Positions 56,516-63,484 of a stretch of 64,000 bases of DNA are shown in pieces (the stretch's first letter is position 1; each line of letters starts with the position of its first letter). This DNA is from Armatimonadetes bacterium Uphvl-Ar2 (GTDB lineage: Bacteria > Armatimonadota > Fimbriimonadia > Fimbriimonadales > Fimbriimonadaceae). The notes beneath the pieces were generated by a model. The model saw nothing but the letters and a program-made list of their open reading frames with translations. It did no database searches and was not told the origin of the DNA. The stretch is taken from NCBI GenBank assembly GCA_002162095.1, contig CP021424.1, positions 930,001-994,000 of the forward strand. The letters run 5' to 3'. A program made the position numbers and the translations under genes.

Positions 56516-56971
56516 ATGGCGGAATCCAAGTACGTTGTCTTTTCAATCGGTTCGGAACTGTTCGGGCTGGAGATCGAATTCACTGAGCGCATCCTCACGG
56601 CGCAAAAAGAAACCCGAATTCCCCGCTCTCCGGCGGCGATGTTGGGTCTCTTCGATTTGCGAGGGCGCACCATTCCGGTGTTTGACCTTGCCCTGCGCCT
56701 GGATTACGGCCAGCCGAGCAAGGGCGGCAACGACGTGGTGGTCGCCGATGCTGAGTGCCCCTACGCCCTGCGCGTGGACCAGGTGGTGGGCATTGTCACG
56801 CTCACCGAAGAGAACCAGGAAGACGCGGACGAGCAATTCACGCGCCGGGACGACCCGTTTGTGTCGGGGATCGGCAAGTGGGATGAGAAGCTCATCTTGC
56901 TCCTCAATCCGGAAGCGCTGCTCCCGTCCAAGCTTCGAGCGAAAGCGGAAAAGCTCGCCCAAGCCGCCTAA
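56516..56971 (+). CDS. cheW: CheW-domain chemotaxis protein
   Basis: 151 residues from ATG 56516; an in-frame ATG at 56492 is also open. 'KYVVFSIGSELFGLEIEFTERIL', 'LGLFDLRGRTIPVFDLALRL' and 'ALRVDQVVGIVTL' mark the two SH3-like barrels of CheW. It couples receptors to CheA at the membrane. It is convergent and overlapping by 4 nt with tmk, and separated from the cheC-cheR cluster by ~3.4 kb. No CheA is seen. Confidence 0.92.
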   Translation: MAESKYVVFSIGSELFGLEIEFTERILTAQKETRIPRSPAAMLGLFDLRGRTIPVFDLALRLDYGQPSKGGNDVVVADAECPYALRVDQVVGIVTLTEENQEDADEQFTRRDDPFVSGIGKWDEKLILLLNPEALLPSKLRAKAEKLAQAA

Positions 56972-57558
56972 AGGCGCGCGCTCAACTCTTGCCACGCCCG
57001 CTCGGCCACCTGGTCGGCGGGCTGGCTGGCGTCTAGGGTCACCCACCGCGCCGGGTCGCGCTGGGATTCGCTGAGAAAGCCCTCGCGGACCCGCTGATGA
57101 AACTCAAGCGGCTCCCGGTCCATCCGGTCGCCCTTGGCTCGGCCCAGCCCAATGGCGGGGTCAAGGTCCAGCAGGAAGGTCAACGCCGGGGTGTTCCCCT
57201 GCGTGGCCAGCGCATTCAGCCGCCTCAGCAAATCGAGATCGTGGCCCCGGGCGTAGCCTTGATACACCACGGTGCTATCGGCATGACGGTCGCATAGCAC
57301 CACCGCGCCTCGGGCCAGGGCGGGGGCAATCAGCTGAGACCAGTGTTGAGAGCGATCCGCCAGGAACAGAAACAGCTCGGCCCGCTCATCCAAAGATTCA
57401 CTCTCCAGCAGCCACCGGCGAATCTCACTGCCGAGGTCACCGGCCCCGGGCTCGCGGGTGCACACCACCTCACGCCCTTGCGCCTCAAGCTGCGCTGCCA
57501 ACGTGCGCAAGAGCGTGGACTTCCCACCGCCTTCGGGGCCTTCAAAGGTGATGAACAA
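56968..57558 (-). CDS. tmk: Thymidylate kinase
   Basis: 196 residues. 'MFITFEGPEGGGKSTLLRTL' holds the P-loop, then 'CTREPGAGDLGSEIRRWLL' (the TREPGGT region), 'ALARGAVVLCDRHADSTVVYQGYARGHD' (DRY/Y of thymidylate kinase, here DRH) and the lid 'GRAKGDRMDREPLEFHQRVREGF'. It phosphorylates dTMP to dTDP. It lies 9 nt after nusB and is last in the acc operon. Confidence 0.93.
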   Translation of the reverse strand: MFITFEGPEGGGKSTLLRTLAAQLEAQGREVVCTREPGAGDLGSEIRRWLLESESLDERAELFLFLADRSQHWSQLIAPALARGAVVLCDRHADSTVVYQGYARGHDLDLLRRLNALATQGNTPALTFLLDLDPAIGLGRAKGDRMDREPLEFHQRVREGFLSESQRDPARWVTLDASQPADQVAERAWQELSARL

Positions 57559-57567
57559 GGGCGCCTC

Positions 57568-58185
57568 TCAGGAGTCTTCTTCGTCGTCGTGCCGCAGCAC
57601 CCACACAGGGGCGCTGGGCTCGGGGCGGACCGTGCCGGGCTCCGGGGCCGTTTCTTCGGGCTCCAGGGGTACATCACTCTGTTCGCCGCCGGGCATATCA
57701 GTGGGCGGAGTCCAGTTAGCCTTCGGCGAATTCCGCAGCACGGTGGCCAAGATGCCGTGGACAAAGCGCCCGCTCTCCTTGCTGCCGAACCGCTGGGCGA
57801 GGTGGACGTATTCGCTAATCGTCACTTTGGGCGGCATGTCTTCTAAGGCCCACAGTTCGTAGCACGCCATCCGCAAGGCGTTGCGGTCGGTAGCGCCCAG
57901 GCGTTCCAGCGGCCAGGCTTCGGTAAGGTGACCGGAGAAACAGGCATCCCACCGGTCGGCATCGCTGGCCGTGCCGTGCACCAGGTCGGTGAGGAACGCC
58001 CACGTCTTCGCCTCGAAGTTCGTGACCTCCTTCAGCTCACGCAACACCTCGGTTGGGCTCCGGTGCCCCACCGCCACGGCGTACATGGCCTGGTAGGCAG
58101 CCTCCCGCGCATCCCTTCGACTGGCAATCGGCGGGGCAGTCTCTTCGGGTGCCCCGGATGGCTCAGGCGCTGACGACTTGCTCAT
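57568..58185 (-). CDS. nusB: Transcription antitermination factor NusB
   Basis: 205 residues from ATG 58185. The NusB helical fold is marked by 'RRDAREAAYQAMYAVAVG' and 'RLGATDRNALRMACYELWALEDMPPKVTISEYVHLAQRFGSKESGRFVHGILATVLR'. NusB with NusE/S10 binds boxA RNA for rRNA antitermination. The N-terminal ~25 residues and the C-terminal acidic ~60-residue tail (EPEETAPEPGTVRPE) are extra compared with the usual ~140-residue protein. Its start overlaps accC by 23 nt. Confidence 0.93.
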   Translation of the reverse strand: MSKSSAPEPSGAPEETAPPIASRRDAREAAYQAMYAVAVGHRSPTEVLRELKEVTNFEAKTWAFLTDLVHGTASDADRWDACFSGHLTEAWPLERLGATDRNALRMACYELWALEDMPPKVTISEYVHLAQRFGSKESGRFVHGILATVLRNSPKANWTPPTDMPGGEQSDVPLEPEETAPEPGTVRPEPSAPVWVLRHDDEEDS

Positions 58186-59524
58186 CCAGGAACCGCGGGA
58201 CAAAGGCCGTACTCACGTCACCCGAGATGTAATCCGGGTGACGCACTAGACGGCGCAAGAAGGGGATATTGGTCGGCACGCCTTCGACATGGAATTCATC
58301 CAGCGCCGCCGTGAGAATGCGCAAGGCGTGCGCCCGGTCGTGACCCGTCACGATCAGCTTGGCCAGCATCGGATCGTAGAACGGCGAGACCGTGAAGCCC
58401 GCGTAGCAGTGCGTGTCCATGCGAACGCCACCGAAGCCCGGAGCATCCCAGCGCGTAATCAAGCCGGTGCCCGGCCGGAAGTCGTTGTCCGGGTCCTGCG
58501 CCGTGATGCGCGCCTCAATGCTGTGCCCGCGCAAGGCAATGTCAGCCTGCGTCATGGTCAGCGACTCGCCATTGGCAATGCGGATCTGCCACTGCACCAG
58601 GTCCAGGCCGGTGATCTGTTCCGTCACCGGGTGCTCCACCTGGATACGGGTGTTCATTTCGAGGAAGTAGAACTCACCGCGCGCATCCAACAAGAACTCG
58701 ACCGTACCCGCGTTGGTGTAGCCCACTTCTTTGGCTACCCGCACGGCGGCTTCGCCCATCTTTCGGCGCGTGGTTTCGTCCAGAACGGCGCAGGGGGCTT
58801 CCTCCACGATTTTTTGGTGGCGCAGGTTCTGGATCGAGCATTCGCGTTCGCCCAGGTACAGGCAGTTGCCGTGCTCGTCGGCCAGAATCTGGATTTCCAC
58901 GTGCCGGGGCTCCACCACGCAGCGCTCCACCAGCATCTCGTCGTTGCCAAAGCTCGCCAAGGCTTCAGCCTGTGCGGTCTTCCATTGACGACCAAGCTCT
59001 TCCGCGTTGTCCACCCGGCGGATTCCCCGCCCGCCGCCGCCCGCCACGGCCTTGAGAAGCACGGGGTAACCGATTTCGTCGGCAATCTTGCAGGCGTCTT
59101 GCTCGTTCTCCACCACGCCGCTGGAGCCCGGCACCACCGGACACTCGCTAACGATGGCGGCTTGCTTGGCCGAAGCCTTGTCACCCATCGAGCGGATGGC
59201 GGCCACATTCGGGCCGATGAACTTCACGCCCAAACTGGCCAGGGCTTCCGCAAATCGGTCGCGCTCGCTAAAGTAGCCGTAGCCCGGGTGCACGGCATCG
59301 GCGCCGGTGGCTTCCACGGCCGCCAGCACGTTGGGCAGGTTCAGATAGCTGTCGGTGTTGGTCGCTTCGCCCACGCAGATGGCTTCATCTGACAACAGCA
59401 CATGGCGGCTGGCGGCATCGGCCTGGCTGTAGATGGCCACGCTCTGGATGCCCATTTCACGGCAGGCCCGAATCACGCGGCAGGCGATTTCGCCCCGGTT
59501 GGCAATCAAGATCTTCTGGAACAT
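58163..59524 (-). CDS. accC: Biotin carboxylase subunit of acetyl-CoA carboxylase
   Basis: 453 residues from ATG 59524. 'MFQKILIANRGEIACRVIRACREMGI', the Gly-rich ATP loop 'LLKAVAGGGGRGIRRV', 'ECSIQNLRHQKIVEEAP' and the catalytic 'FLEMNTRIQVEHPVTEQITGLDLVQWQI' are all in place. It carboxylates biotin on BCCP using ATP and bicarbonate. The upstream genes are a pilin-like gene and a BCCP-like gene lacking the biotin Lys, so the true biotin carrier must be elsewhere. The ATG overlaps the pilin-like stop (ATGA). Confidence 0.96.
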   Translation of the reverse strand: MFQKILIANRGEIACRVIRACREMGIQSVAIYSQADAASRHVLLSDEAICVGEATNTDSYLNLPNVLAAVEATGADAVHPGYGYFSERDRFAEALASLGVKFIGPNVAAIRSMGDKASAKQAAIVSECPVVPGSSGVVENEQDACKIADEIGYPVLLKAVAGGGGRGIRRVDNAEELGRQWKTAQAEALASFGNDEMLVERCVVEPRHVEIQILADEHGNCLYLGERECSIQNLRHQKIVEEAPCAVLDETTRRKMGEAAVRVAKEVGYTNAGTVEFLLDARGEFYFLEMNTRIQVEHPVTEQITGLDLVQWQIRIANGESLTMTQADIALRGHSIEARITAQDPDNDFRPGTGLITRWDAPGFGGVRMDTHCYAGFTVSPFYDPMLAKLIVTGHDRAHALRILTAALDEFHVEGVPTNIPFLRRLVRHPDYISGDVSTAFVPRFLDEQVVSA

Positions 59525-59910
59525 CAATAATTCTCGTGTCCGGGATGGACGCATTTGACTTGACCCGTAGCCGGATCATAAACATAAGGCTCTTTCCCGA
59601 GCGGGCAGGCTTCGTAGTCCGCCCCCAGCTTCAGGTCCTTGAGCGAAGACGGCGCCACTTCTTCCACCGGGTCGGTGTTGATTTGGATGGCCATGCGCAC
59701 CTGCTTCAGGTTGCTTTGGCACTTGGTGTCCTTGCCCGCGGCCAGGCTTCGGCCCACCACGGTTTCGCCCACGCCATCCTTGCGCTTGTCGGCGGCCTTA
59801 CCGGTGAGGCCCGGGAAACCTCCATTGACATAAACAATCACGCCAACCAGCACCACGGCCGCCACCACGACCATTTCAATCATGCCGCGACCAGCAGTGT
59901 TTCGCTTCAT
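59524..59910 (-). CDS. Type IV pilin-like / pseudopilin-like protein
   Basis: 128 residues. A short basic leader (MKRNTAGRG) is followed by a hydrophobic helix 'MIEMVVVAAVVLVGVIVYVNG', like prepilins cleaved after Gly. The Glu is at mature position 3 rather than 5, so processing by a prepilin peptidase is not certain. The C-terminal part has a small domain with two Cys pairs possible ('KCQSNLKQVRMAI', 'YEACPLG', 'VKCVHP'). It sits between the BCCP-like gene and accC with 4-nt overlaps on both sides, an odd place for a pilin. Function unknown. Confidence 0.65.
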   Translation of the reverse strand: MKRNTAGRGMIEMVVVAAVVLVGVIVYVNGGFPGLTGKAADKRKDGVGETVVGRSLAAGKDTKCQSNLKQVRMAIQINTDPVEEVAPSSLKDLKLGADYEACPLGKEPYVYDPATGQVKCVHPGHENY

Positions 59911-60305
59911 TCGCCCTTCACCCGCAAAATCGTCGTGCCGTAATCCACTCGGGCGCCATCGGTAGTCACCAGTTCCAGCACTTCACCGCCCACCGGAGTG
60001 GTGATCTCGTTAGAGATGCCCAGCGCCACGACTTCGCCGATACGCTGGCCGGCTTCGAGCACGGTGCCGACCTGCACATCGTCGGCTGCCCGGAACGTGC
60101 CCACCAACTGCGTCGTGACGGCCTTGGGGGGCGTGACGGCAGGGGTGGCGTCGTCCAGTTCAAACTCATCTTCGTCCAGTTCAACAACGGGAGGCAAAAC
60201 CGCCTCAAACTTGGCATCGCCTTCGCGGACTCGCACGTAGCGAACCCCGGCGTCCGCCGCCCGGCGCAGGATATCCCTTAAGGTGTCCGCATCGAAGCCG
60301 CTCAT
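59907..60305 (-). CDS. BCCP-like protein lacking the biotin-attachment lysine
   Basis: 132 residues. The organisation follows AccB: an N-terminal segment (DADTLRDILRRAADAGVRYVRVREGDAKFE), a Glu/Asp/Pro linker (about 38-60), and a C-terminal biotinyl domain with 'VGTFRAADDVQVGTVLEAGQRIGEVVALGISNEITTPVGGEVLEL'. The expected EAMKM motif reads VALGI: the Lys is Gly at residue 96 (codon 60018-60020). It cannot be biotinylated at the usual site. It overlaps the pilin-like gene and is the first gene of the accC operon. By analogy with plant BADC proteins it may bind AccC and regulate the carboxylase. Confidence 0.8.
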   Translation of the reverse strand: MSGFDADTLRDILRRAADAGVRYVRVREGDAKFEAVLPPVVELDEDEFELDDATPAVTPPKAVTTQLVGTFRAADDVQVGTVLEAGQRIGEVVALGISNEITTPVGGEVLELVTTDGARVDYGTTILRVKGE

Positions 60306-60312
60306 GCCTCAC

Positions 60313-60318
60313 AGTGTA
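60313..60318 (-). promoter_or_regulatory. -10 element abutting the BCCP-like start
   Basis: TACACT on the minus strand ends 7 nt before the ATG at 60305; the gap also holds GAGG. It would drive the BCCP-like, pilin-like, accC, nusB, tmk operon. Confidence 0.4.
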
Positions 60319-60366
60319 CCAAGAGCGAAACCCCGTATCCCTGTCAGGTGGCGTGTCCGCGGCGGT

Positions 60367-61023
60367 ATGGAAAGCCTCAACAGGGTCCTTGGTATGTCGG
60401 AATTTTTGGATCAACTCGGCGAACTCGAGTTGTCGGCGGTGCATGAAATCGCCAATATCGGTTTAGGGAACGCCGCCACTTCGCTTTCCGCGCTGCTCGG
60501 TCGCACCGTTCACATTGAGGTCCCCCGGGTGAGTGCCCGCATGGTGGGAGCCCTGGCTCAAGAGACGTTGGACGCCGGCATTGTGACGGTGGGCGTACTG
60601 ATGCCGTTTGATGGGGACGCGGAAGGCACAATGGCCTTCTTTTTCCCGTGGGAAGCCGCCACCGAACTCTGGGAGACCTTGATCGGCGCGAAGCCCGACG
60701 GCCCCTGCGACATTGACGAAATGGCGGCTTCGGTGATGATCGAAGTCGGCAACATGGTCTGCTCGGGATTCCTGAACTCGGTCGCTGAGCTAACGAACCT
60801 CGGCCTCTTTGCCACCCCGCCCGCGATGGGTGTGGACTTTATGGAGAGTTTGCTGGCCACCCTGGACGTGGAAGCCGAACTAAATATGCGGGTAGCGCTC
60901 ACCATCAACACCCGCTTGCACGGCGAGGACGGAAGTGCCCTGGAGGGCATGTGCCTCGTCATCCCCAGCCAGGAAGGCCTGGTCCGATTGCTTCAATCCC
61001 TTGGGCTTGAGGTCGCCGCCTAA
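60367..61023 (+). CDS. cheC: CheC-family chemotaxis phosphatase
   Basis: 218 residues from ATG 60367; ATG 60394 is an alternative. Both CheC active sites are visible: 'HEIANIGLGNAATSLSALLG' and 'VMIEVGNMVCSGFLNSVAEL' (ExxN in each). CheC dephosphorylates CheY-P and binds CheD to control adaptation. The downstream cheD starts 2 nt after the stop. It heads the cheC-cheD-HDOD-cheB-cheR cluster. Confidence 0.92.
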   Translation: MESLNRVLGMSEFLDQLGELELSAVHEIANIGLGNAATSLSALLGRTVHIEVPRVSARMVGALAQETLDAGIVTVGVLMPFDGDAEGTMAFFFPWEAATELWETLIGAKPDGPCDIDEMAASVMIEVGNMVCSGFLNSVAELTNLGLFATPPAMGVDFMESLLATLDVEAELNMRVALTINTRLHGEDGSALEGMCLVIPSQEGLVRLLQSLGLEVAA

Positions 61024-61025
61024 AC

Positions 61026-61547
61026 GTGGAAACCTTTGGCGTTGGCATGAGCGAGATTGTCGTCCGAAAGGGGGCGGCCAAGTATCTCTGTCTCGGACTC
61101 GGAAGCTGCATCGGGGTGGCCATCTACGATCCCAGAGCGGACGTTAGCGGCATGATCCACGTGATGCTGCCGGCGGCGTTCCCGGACCGACCGGTAGACC
61201 AGATTGGAAAGTTTGCCGATACCGGCATCCCCGCCCTACTCATGGCGATGGAAAAGATGGGGGCCAACAAGCGCAATATGAAGGTGGCCATTGCCGGCGG
61301 AGCGCAGGTTTTCAAATTCAACAACACCGGCACCAATCAGCTCGATATTGGGCGCCGCAACGGCGAGGCCGTGATTGAACAACTGACCAAAGCCGGGCTC
61401 AAGATTTTGGCCAAGGACATCGGGGGCACCCATGGTCGCACGGTGACCTTTACGGTGCCGGACGGGCAGGTGGAAGTGAAGACGCTCAGCCAAGGGGTGT
61501 CGGAATTGTGCAACCTTGCCGACAATCGAGAGCGTAGCGCGGCCTAA
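61026..61547 (+). CDS. cheD: Chemoreceptor glutamine deamidase CheD
   Basis: 173 residues from GTG 61026. The catalytic Cys is in 'LCLGLGSCIGVAIYDP', the His in 'GMIHVMLP', and 'VAIAGGAQVF' and 'DIGGTHGRTVTF' complete the family pattern. It deamidates receptor glutamines and forms a complex with CheC. It is next to cheC, as in Bacillus and Thermotoga-like systems. Together with CheB and CheR it makes a full methylation-deamidation adaptation set. Confidence 0.94.
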   Translation: METFGVGMSEIVVRKGAAKYLCLGLGSCIGVAIYDPRADVSGMIHVMLPAAFPDRPVDQIGKFADTGIPALLMAMEKMGANKRNMKVAIAGGAQVFKFNNTGTNQLDIGRRNGEAVIEQLTKAGLKILAKDIGGTHGRTVTFTVPDGQVEVKTLSQGVSELCNLADNRERSAA

Positions 61548-61562
61548 AAGAGGGAGAGACTT

Positions 61563-62426
61563 GTGGGCGTAATCATCACGATAGACGAAATGATTGATCG
61601 GACGGCCGATCTGCCGGTGATTCCGGCGGTGGCGCTCCGCATCATGCATGAAGCGGATTCAAACACGGCGTCCGCATCGCAGATTGCCATGCTGTTGGCG
61701 CGAGACCCGGCCTTAGCCTCGCGAGTCTTGCGACTGGCGAACTCGGCCTACTACGGTTTGTCCGGCCAGGTTTTTGGTCTCAAGGAGGCCGTTGTGGTTC
61801 TCGGTCTGCGCTGCGTAAAGAATCTGGCGCTGGTGGCGGTGAGTTACCCGTGGCTGAGCAAGCCGCTGCACGGCTACGGCCTGGACCCCAAGGATCTTTG
61901 GATGCACTCGCACGGCACCGCCGTGGCCGCCATGTTGGCGGCCCAACGCAGTGGGCGCCTGCGCGATGACGAAGCCTTCACCGCTGGTCTCTTGCACGAC
62001 ATCGGCAAGTTGGCGATGAACGTGTGGCTGGAGCGCAAGACCGAAGCCTTGATTCAGCTTTCCTCGCTCAATGGATGGAGCTTTGTGGAGTGTGAGCGCA
62101 CGGTTTTGGGCTACGACCACGGCCAAGTTGGGGGGCGTATTGCCGAACGCTGGAACCTACCCCTCTCCGTAATTGATTCGGCGCGTTATCACCACGAGCC
62201 GGATGCCCGTCCCGACCCCTCCCTGGTTGTGGATGCGGTGCATTTAGGGGACTATCTGGCGTCCGCATTGGGGTTCGGCATGGGGGCCGACGGCCTGCAA
62301 TACGCTTTGCAGCCCAATACACTCGTCCGACTTGGTCTTCACCCTCAAGACATCGACCGAATTGCCGACGATTTAGAGCGTGAGCGACGGCTTCAAGCCG
62401 AATCGTTCGAGGAGATTGTTGCGTGA
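61563..62426 (+). CDS. HDOD-domain protein
   Basis: 287 residues from GTG 61563. 'LPVIPAVALRIMHEADSNTASASQIAMLLARDPALASRVLRLANSAYYG' is the HDOD start, and 'AGLLHDIGKLAMNVWL' and 'VLGYDHGQVGGRIAERWNLP' mimic HD-domain motifs while the metal-binding set is incomplete, as in HDOD proteins. The family relays signals without catalysis. It sits between cheD and cheB, overlapping cheB by 4 nt, so it may tune chemotaxis or motility. The ligand is unknown. Confidence 0.9.
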   Translation: MGVIITIDEMIDRTADLPVIPAVALRIMHEADSNTASASQIAMLLARDPALASRVLRLANSAYYGLSGQVFGLKEAVVVLGLRCVKNLALVAVSYPWLSKPLHGYGLDPKDLWMHSHGTAVAAMLAAQRSGRLRDDEAFTAGLLHDIGKLAMNVWLERKTEALIQLSSLNGWSFVECERTVLGYDHGQVGGRIAERWNLPLSVIDSARYHHEPDARPDPSLVVDAVHLGDYLASALGFGMGADGLQYALQPNTLVRLGLHPQDIDRIADDLERERRLQAESFEEIVA

Positions 62427-63484
62427 AGCCCCGTGTGGTTGTAATTGATGATTCGCCGTTTGTGCGAAGGCTGATCGTCGATTGGCTCACGGAAGGCGGT
62501 GAATTCGAAGTAGTAGGCTCGGCGAACAACGGGCGCGACGGCTTGGTGCTTGTGAAAGAGCAACGGCCCGACCTGGTGACGCTGGACATCGAGATGCCGA
62601 TCATGGACGGCCTCACGTGCCTGCGGCACATCATGGCCGAGTGCCCGACCCGGGTCATCATGGTCAGTAGCCTGACTGAATCCGGCGCCACTCCGACGCT
62701 GGAAGCTCTGGAAATCGGCGCGTTTGACTACTTTGCCAAGCCGAACGGATCGAGCTCCATCAAGTTTATTGGGTGCCAAGAAGAGCTCATCGCGAAGCTC
62801 CAGGCCGCCGTGGGCAGTGCCACCATGCGCCGCCTCACTCCGGCTGCCGCCCCGGCCAAAGCGTTGGTACAAGCTCCCGCCCCTAAGATTTCCATGCCCA
62901 AGACGGACCGTGTGGTGCTCTTGGCCAGCTCAACTGGTGGCCCCAAGGCCCTCGCGGCGTTCTGGCGCGACCTCCCCAAAGGCTTTAGTGCCCCGATTTT
63001 GATGGTGCAACACATGCCCGAGAGCTTCATGGCTTCCTTCGCCGCTCGGCTCAACAGCATCGGCACGGTGCCGTGCCAGTTGGCCAAAGCGGGTGACCGC
63101 CCGGTGCCCGGCGTGGCGCTGATGGCACCCGGTGGCAAGCACATGATGATTGATTCTCACGGCGCGATCGTGCTAGACGATGGTCCGAACCTGCACGGCG
63201 TAAAGCCCGCCGCTGACCATCTGTTTTTGACGGCCGCCGCCAAGTGGGGCAACCGCTGCCTAGGCGCCATCTTCACCGGCATGGGCCGGGATGGCACCGA
63301 AGGCGCCAAGGTGATCCGCGGCAAGGGCGGCTACATGATCGGCGAATCGGAAGAAACCTGTGTGGTCTACGGCATGCCCCGGGCCGCCAAGGAAGCCGGC
63401 GGCATTGACCGCGAGCTGCCACTAACCGCTATGGCTCCGGCCCTGGTGACCGCCATTGTGAAGGGGAAGAACATTGCTGCCTAA
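62423..63484 (+). CDS. cheB: Chemotaxis response regulator methylesterase CheB
   Basis: 353 residues from GTG 62423. The receiver domain (1-120) has 'VVVIDDSPFVRRLIVDWL', phospho-accepting Asp in 'LVTLDIEMPIMDG', and the switch Thr/Ser and Lys in 'MVSSL' and 'FAKP'. The methylesterase domain has 'LASSTGGPKAL' (Ser nucleophile), 'MVQHMPESFMASFAARL' (His) and 'AIFTGMGRDGTEGAKVI' (Asp). CheB removes methyl groups from receptors when phosphorylated by CheA. Confidence 0.96.
   Translation: MKPRVVVIDDSPFVRRLIVDWLTEGGEFEVVGSANNGRDGLVLVKEQRPDLVTLDIEMPIMDGLTCLRHIMAECPTRVIMVSSLTESGATPTLEALEIGAFDYFAKPNGSSSIKFIGCQEELIAKLQAAVGSATMRRLTPAAAPAKALVQAPAPKISMPKTDRVVLLASSTGGPKALAAFWRDLPKGFSAPILMVQHMPESFMASFAARLNSIGTVPCQLAKAGDRPVPGVALMAPGGKHMMIDSHGAIVLDDGPNLHGVKPAADHLFLTAAAKWGNRCLGAIFTGMGRDGTEGAKVIRGKGGYMIGESEETCVVYGMPRAAKEAGGIDRELPLTAMAPALVTAIVKGKNIAA

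Follow-up and report, generated by a model that had tools for sequence, protein, structure and literature searches.

A BCCP paralogue without the biotinylated lysine, encoded in the accC operon of Armatimonadota, as a candidate non-catalytic subunit of ACC

The window analysed here, a stretch of 64,000 nucleotides from Armatimonadetes bacterium Uphvl-Ar2, carries on its minus strand an accC operon that begins with an unusual gene. The open reading frame at 59907..60305 (minus) encodes 132 aa and is a BCCP/AccB paralogue without the lysine, as judged by a Biotin_lipoyl match, a structural model and alignments. Its translation from the minus strand of 59907-60305 reads MSGFDADTL...VGTVLEAGQRIGEVVALGISNEITTPVGGEVLEL..., and the plus-strand translation of the same interval contains a stop. 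Between the paralogue and accC lies a gene for a pseudopilin-like small membrane protein of 128 aa (59524..59910, minus). It is followed by accC, encoding biotin carboxylase (58163..59524, minus; AccC equivalog match), by nusB (57568..58203, minus), the next gene of the conserved cluster, and by a tmk-like thymidylate kinase ORF (56968..57558, minus), which was named by sequence inspection and occurs in the same gene order in the second genome of the genus (L103). The stop codon of the paralogue overlaps the start of the pseudopilin gene (ATGA), and the pseudopilin stop overlaps the likely accC start ATG (MFQKILIANRGEIA; TGATG). An initial annotation had described the frame at 59907-60305 as a member of the accC operon with Gly at residue 96, codon 60018-60020. 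We confirm the frame, the residue and the codon, all on the minus strand, and find the operon assignment right, with the one pseudopilin-like gene intervening. Divergent from the operon, at 60283-63484 on the plus strand, lies a chemotaxis cluster of CheC/CheX-like, CheD, HDOD and CheB-like proteins, the CheB-like label having been given by inspection.

The paralogue consists of an N-terminal AccB-like helix-hairpin domain (residues 1-38), a linker (residues 39-60) and a biotinyl-type beta barrel (residues 61-131) in which a short loop takes the place of the AccB thumb. It scores above the curated cut-off of the Pfam Biotin_lipoyl family (PF00364; E 1.5e-5) and below that of the BCCP model TIGR00531 (E 2.8e-7, 31.1 bits against a cut-off of 115.2), a threshold under which the true AccB of the genome also narrowly falls (102.7). 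Profile A1 matched both domains of full-length E. coli AccB (4hr7_B, E 4.3e-20), its residues 3-133 aligning to 20-176 of that chain; as AccB proper begins at residue 20, the paralogue has the N-terminal AccB domain. In accordance, the model of the paralogue (pLDDT 89.5) contains a helix at 6-19 and a hairpin at 23-36. The best structural match of the barrel is E. coli BCCP in its complex with AccC (4hr7_G; Z 13.4, rmsd 0.9 A over 71 residues), followed by Arabidopsis BCCP1 (Z 13.2). HMMER alignment sets the lysine of EAMKM in E. coli AccB opposite Gly96 (IEAMKMMNQI versus IEALGLANDV), the residue encoded by 60018..60020 (minus) and lying inside VALGISNEI of the paralogue. The hairpin around this site keeps N-[DE]-[VI]. 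The thumb loop counts 10 residues between the flanking glycines as against 16 in true AccB (74/74). The defining feature of AccB, the biotinylated lysine of the E-A-M-K hairpin, was tested for and is absent, which places the paralogue outside AccB.

The genome encodes the remainder of an ordinary ACC. In the whole 2.63-Mb genome, only accC at 58163..59524 scores above the AccC equivalog cut-off. The gene for a true AccB, which has the thumb and reads VEAMKTFNEI, lies about 1.14 Mb from the paralogue (G000:C1, about 2,132,400-2,132,865) next to a homoserine dehydrogenase-like gene, so that the real accB is indeed elsewhere, as had been anticipated. accD-accA occupy 102-104 kb, and birA is found at 1.96 Mb. 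With a single AccC equivalog, the AccB at 2.13 Mb has to work with it, and since AccC, true AccB, AccD and AccA are all encoded, the four-subunit ACC is complete without the paralogue. Another EAMKM carrier, encoded next to an HMG-CoA lyase-like gene, is probably part of a different carboxylase. The genome also has a second biotin carboxylase homologue (G000:C1 193689-195031; L344), which adjoins an enoyl-CoA hydratase-like gene and is split over two reading frames, reflecting a frameshift, a pseudogene or an assembly error.

Loss of the lysine is conserved in the clade, a point that the initial annotation had raised as a check. Searching 113 genomes of the class (Fimbriimonadia-like Armatimonadota) and then reading the loci yielded 77 copies at first (76 Gly, 1 Thr) and 82 with later additions, all 82 of them lysine-less (81 Gly, 1 Thr). 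The first 77 are all located upstream of the pseudopilin gene, with accC and nusB next in nearly all loci that are long enough. The count of 110 genomes with matches among the 113 includes matches to true AccB and was set aside as a conservation figure. The second genome of the genus encodes a paralogue that is 92% identical, and the same residue, Gly, occupies the site in 67 independent genomes of the window's family. A sequencing error or mis-assembly at 60018-60020 thus has a negligible probability, and the doubt that resequencing might uncover an AAG codon there fails. Chance or error as the cause of Gly96 is ruled out by conservation, given the 92%-identical copy and 82 lysine-less copies out of 82.

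Is the gene a maintained protein or a remnant? Between the window and its nearest genome (92% identity; both copies lysine-less), dN/dS is 0.057 for the paralogue, 0.022 for accC and 0.115 for nusB; the paralogue is under strong purifying selection. The low dN/dS, the confident fold and the retained N-terminal AccB domain together argue against its being a relic. One could still picture the ancestral operonic accB in decay: once a second accB had taken its role, the gene would be retained only because its translation leads into that of the coupled genes. The paralogue indeed occupies the place of accB in accB-accC operons such as that of Bacillus (PMC5437119), its stop codon overlaps the following start, and both the active lysine and the thumb have been lost repeatedly. 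Yet decay agrees poorly with such a dN/dS, with open frames and a conserved barrel in 150 copies and with conservation of the Gly itself in 81 of the 82 class copies. Moreover, family f3 retains the paralogue after it has left the operon. We regard decay as improbable.

The accC-linked paralogue is found throughout Armatimonadota, the phylum to which the survey was confined. A profile search covered 291 genomes, many of them MAGs, and loci were read for part of the genomes, drawn from nearly all 45 families. The lysine is missing from 123 of 150 paralogues, the site being held by Gly in 93, Lys in 27, Arg in 16, Thr in 4, Asp in 3, His in 3, Asn in 2 and Ser in 2, whereas true AccB has Lys at the site in 74 of the 74 genomes checked. 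When 65 paralogues were placed in one tree with 65 true AccBs, the lysine column having been removed, one branch split the two groups (SH-aLRT 99). Given this single clean split, the two lines probably parted before the phylum spread. Mapped on an AccC tree of 94 genomes, in which branch support is uneven, the site underwent at least 12 changes between Lys and non-Lys and 24 changes of residue state. If lysine was never regained, there were at least 10 losses, counting only branches with SH-aLRT >= 95 under the most favourable root, and 19 on the full tree. Lys and non-Lys copies occur within one family, as in f21 (G191 Lys, G192 Arg) and f30 (G216 Lys, G214 Thr). The picture is therefore wider than first described: the paralogue is phylum-wide, some families have Lys, losses are many and in the class the thumb is lost as well.

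The thumb also bears on those copies that have the lysine. The loop is 8-13 residues long in most paralogues and 8-11 in those of the class, and the full 16 are kept in some other families of the phylum. Thumb mutations disrupt BCCP function in E. coli, according to literature cited in PMC11926652; with the thumb shortened, many of the Lys-bearing paralogues may thus be unusual carriers. Families f12, f26 and f31-f35 (e.g. L136, L144, L147) keep ESMK together with a short thumb loop, and their paralogues may accept biotin and still be unusual as carriers, which would make them an informative intermediate. We read the protein as an ancient AccB paralogue that appears no longer to carry biotin, while in the families with an intact ESMK motif it may be a carrier still. 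In one genome of family f4 (G111; L098/L168) the open frame holding the paralogue spans about 500 codons, either a fusion or merely a long frame before the start. The paralogue, or its loss of the lysine, may also be present in phyla beyond Armatimonadota.

Could the lysine-less protein remain a carrier by other means, through another cofactor, another attachment residue or non-covalent biotin? The motif kept around the site and the Lys of 27 in 150 copies are in line with such a role. However, the class copies have no other conserved Lys (or Cys/Ser) close to the tip of the hairpin, and eight different residues stand at the site across the phylum, which makes it very unlikely.

Given that the order paralogue-pseudopilin-accC is kept over most of the phylum, the neighbour of the paralogue deserves consideration as a partner. 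The pseudopilin has a conserved C-terminus, CPxG..Y.YDP.TG.V.CPHPGHEKY. Several of its relatives carry a prepilin N-methyl motif and others a lipobox-like N-terminus; with either signal, its soluble domain is probably extracytoplasmic. For the pseudopilin model, Foldseek returned a weak match to type IV pilin and nothing significant. Among the public contigs that matched a narrow pilin alignment, records naming a phylum-level group named Armatimonadota, with one exception. This record carries the label Methanoregulaceae archaeon but corresponds to a genome from the window's family; the label looks mistaken. Families f13 and f31 include five genomes (G157, G160, G163, G217, G219) in which the paralogue directly precedes accC and a pseudopilin homologue was not found; the lysine is lost in three of the five (Gly, Asp, Asp). 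Since the paralogue-accC pairing persists without the pseudopilin, the link to accC appears to be the core one. The pseudopilin as an essential partner was accordingly judged unlikely.

A broader possibility is that the paralogue acts with some partner other than ACC, for instance BirA or the pseudopilin, and merely inherited its position before accC from an ancestral accB-accC operon. The conserved three-gene order speaks for this, as does family f3, in which the paralogue is kept away from accC: most f3 copies lie outside the accC operon, yet are kept and lysine-less (EVLGIPNEV or similar), and the gene neighbourhood in f3 offers no support for an ACC role. Conversely, an AccB-type N-terminal domain would be superfluous in a mere BirA-binding barrel, the soluble part of the pseudopilin is probably extracytoplasmic, and some f13 and f31 genomes do without any pseudopilin that we could find. 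A partner outside ACC is thus unlikely, if less so than decay of the gene.

Two 1.5-Mb genomes of the window's family (G067, G068) lack the paralogue, and neither an AccC equivalog nor a thumb-type AccB was found in them. What they keep is a biotin carboxylase next to an enoyl-CoA hydratase-like gene and, next to an HMG-CoA lyase-like gene, an EAMK carrier; their malonyl-CoA may be made by a different carboxylase. In both genomes (L339, L341, L342) a single ORF of 480-500 aa matches AccD and then AccA, a fused carboxyltransferase. The joint absence of AccC, AccB and paralogue would count for a role in ACC, with a weight that is limited, as it is one event in a streamlined lineage in which the pseudopilin was lost too.

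Gene order, domain make-up and selection lead us to propose that the paralogue probably joins AccC (and AccB) as a non-catalytic subunit of ACC, in the manner of plant BADC. The AccB-type N-terminal domain and the lysine-less barrel would bind the co-encoded AccC, whether the paralogue is alone on AccC or shares a mixed complex with the true AccB from its distant locus. With its AccB N-terminal domain retained and its gene in the operon of the sole AccC, the paralogue should be capable of occupying BCCP sites on AccC. By occupying them it would set the amount of catalytically competent AccC-AccB complex, as an assembly partner or as a brake. As a scaffold it may promote or shape the assembly of AccC with AccB, as a decoy it may restrict it, and we prefer neither direction.

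On balance, and with somewhat less assurance, we are inclined to think that the phylum Armatimonadota carries an accC-linked second BCCP that has changed repeatedly, from a carrier to a regulatory or scaffolding ACC subunit with no catalytic role, an independent bacterial BADC. ACC catalyses the first committed step of fatty-acid synthesis. The assembly and tuning of multi-subunit ACCs are still debated, not least whether plant BADC inhibits the enzyme or promotes its assembly, and a bacterial version linked to the only AccC would make the question testable by simple reconstitution. If the proposal holds, the states with and without Lys are both still alive in sister families, and many independent repeats of the change from carrier to pseudo-carrier are on offer. 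Non-catalytic BCCPs have so far been described only in plants.

Several known systems invite comparison. Epsilon-type subunits, which to our knowledge are not BCCP homologues, resemble the proposed role as non-catalytic subunits of bacterial acyl-CoA carboxylases. They are small accessories that aid holoenzyme assembly, according to work cited in PMC11926652. With AccB/BCCP itself (TIGR00531; E. coli AccB, PDB 4HR7, 1BDO) the paralogue shares the two-domain architecture, the barrel fold and a position upstream of accC, the last as in Bacillus (PMC5437119). It differs from AccB in having no biotinyl lysine and, in the class, a loop of 8-11 residues instead of the 16-residue thumb loop. YqhY, whose protein family is not known to be related to the paralogue, offers a likeness of another kind, namely a conserved non-catalytic gene in an accC operon that affects ACC function. 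In Bacillus and others, YqhY (Asp23 family) is encoded by the third gene of accB-accC-yqhY, and deletion of yqhY selects suppressors in ACC subunits, so non-catalytic genes of accC operons can influence ACC (PMC5437119). The Chloroflexus case (PMC11077971) was considered as a pseudo-BCCP and rejected, as the fused BC-BCCP has an intact Lys and the other BC has no BCCP domain. A search of the literature available to us found no report of a lysine-less bacterial AccB, which is weak evidence of novelty.

The closest parallel is plant BADC (BADC1-3 of Arabidopsis), likewise a BCCP homologue without the AMK lysine in a genome that also encodes true BCCP. The analogy, drawn already in the initial annotation, holds well: the domain make-up agrees, the lysine is missing and a true BCCP is present alongside. 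BADC interacts with both BC and BCCP; some reports describe it as an inhibitor, others as an assembly 'glue', and a 2025 NMR paper considers it unique to the plant enzyme (PMC11926652). Unlike BADC, the paralogue is bacterial, is co-encoded with accC and still has Lys in several families. It is also set apart from true AccB by an old branch running through all Armatimonadota. Given this single branch between paralogue and true AccB, in a tree of Armatimonadota sequences, the paralogue probably arose independently of plant BADC.
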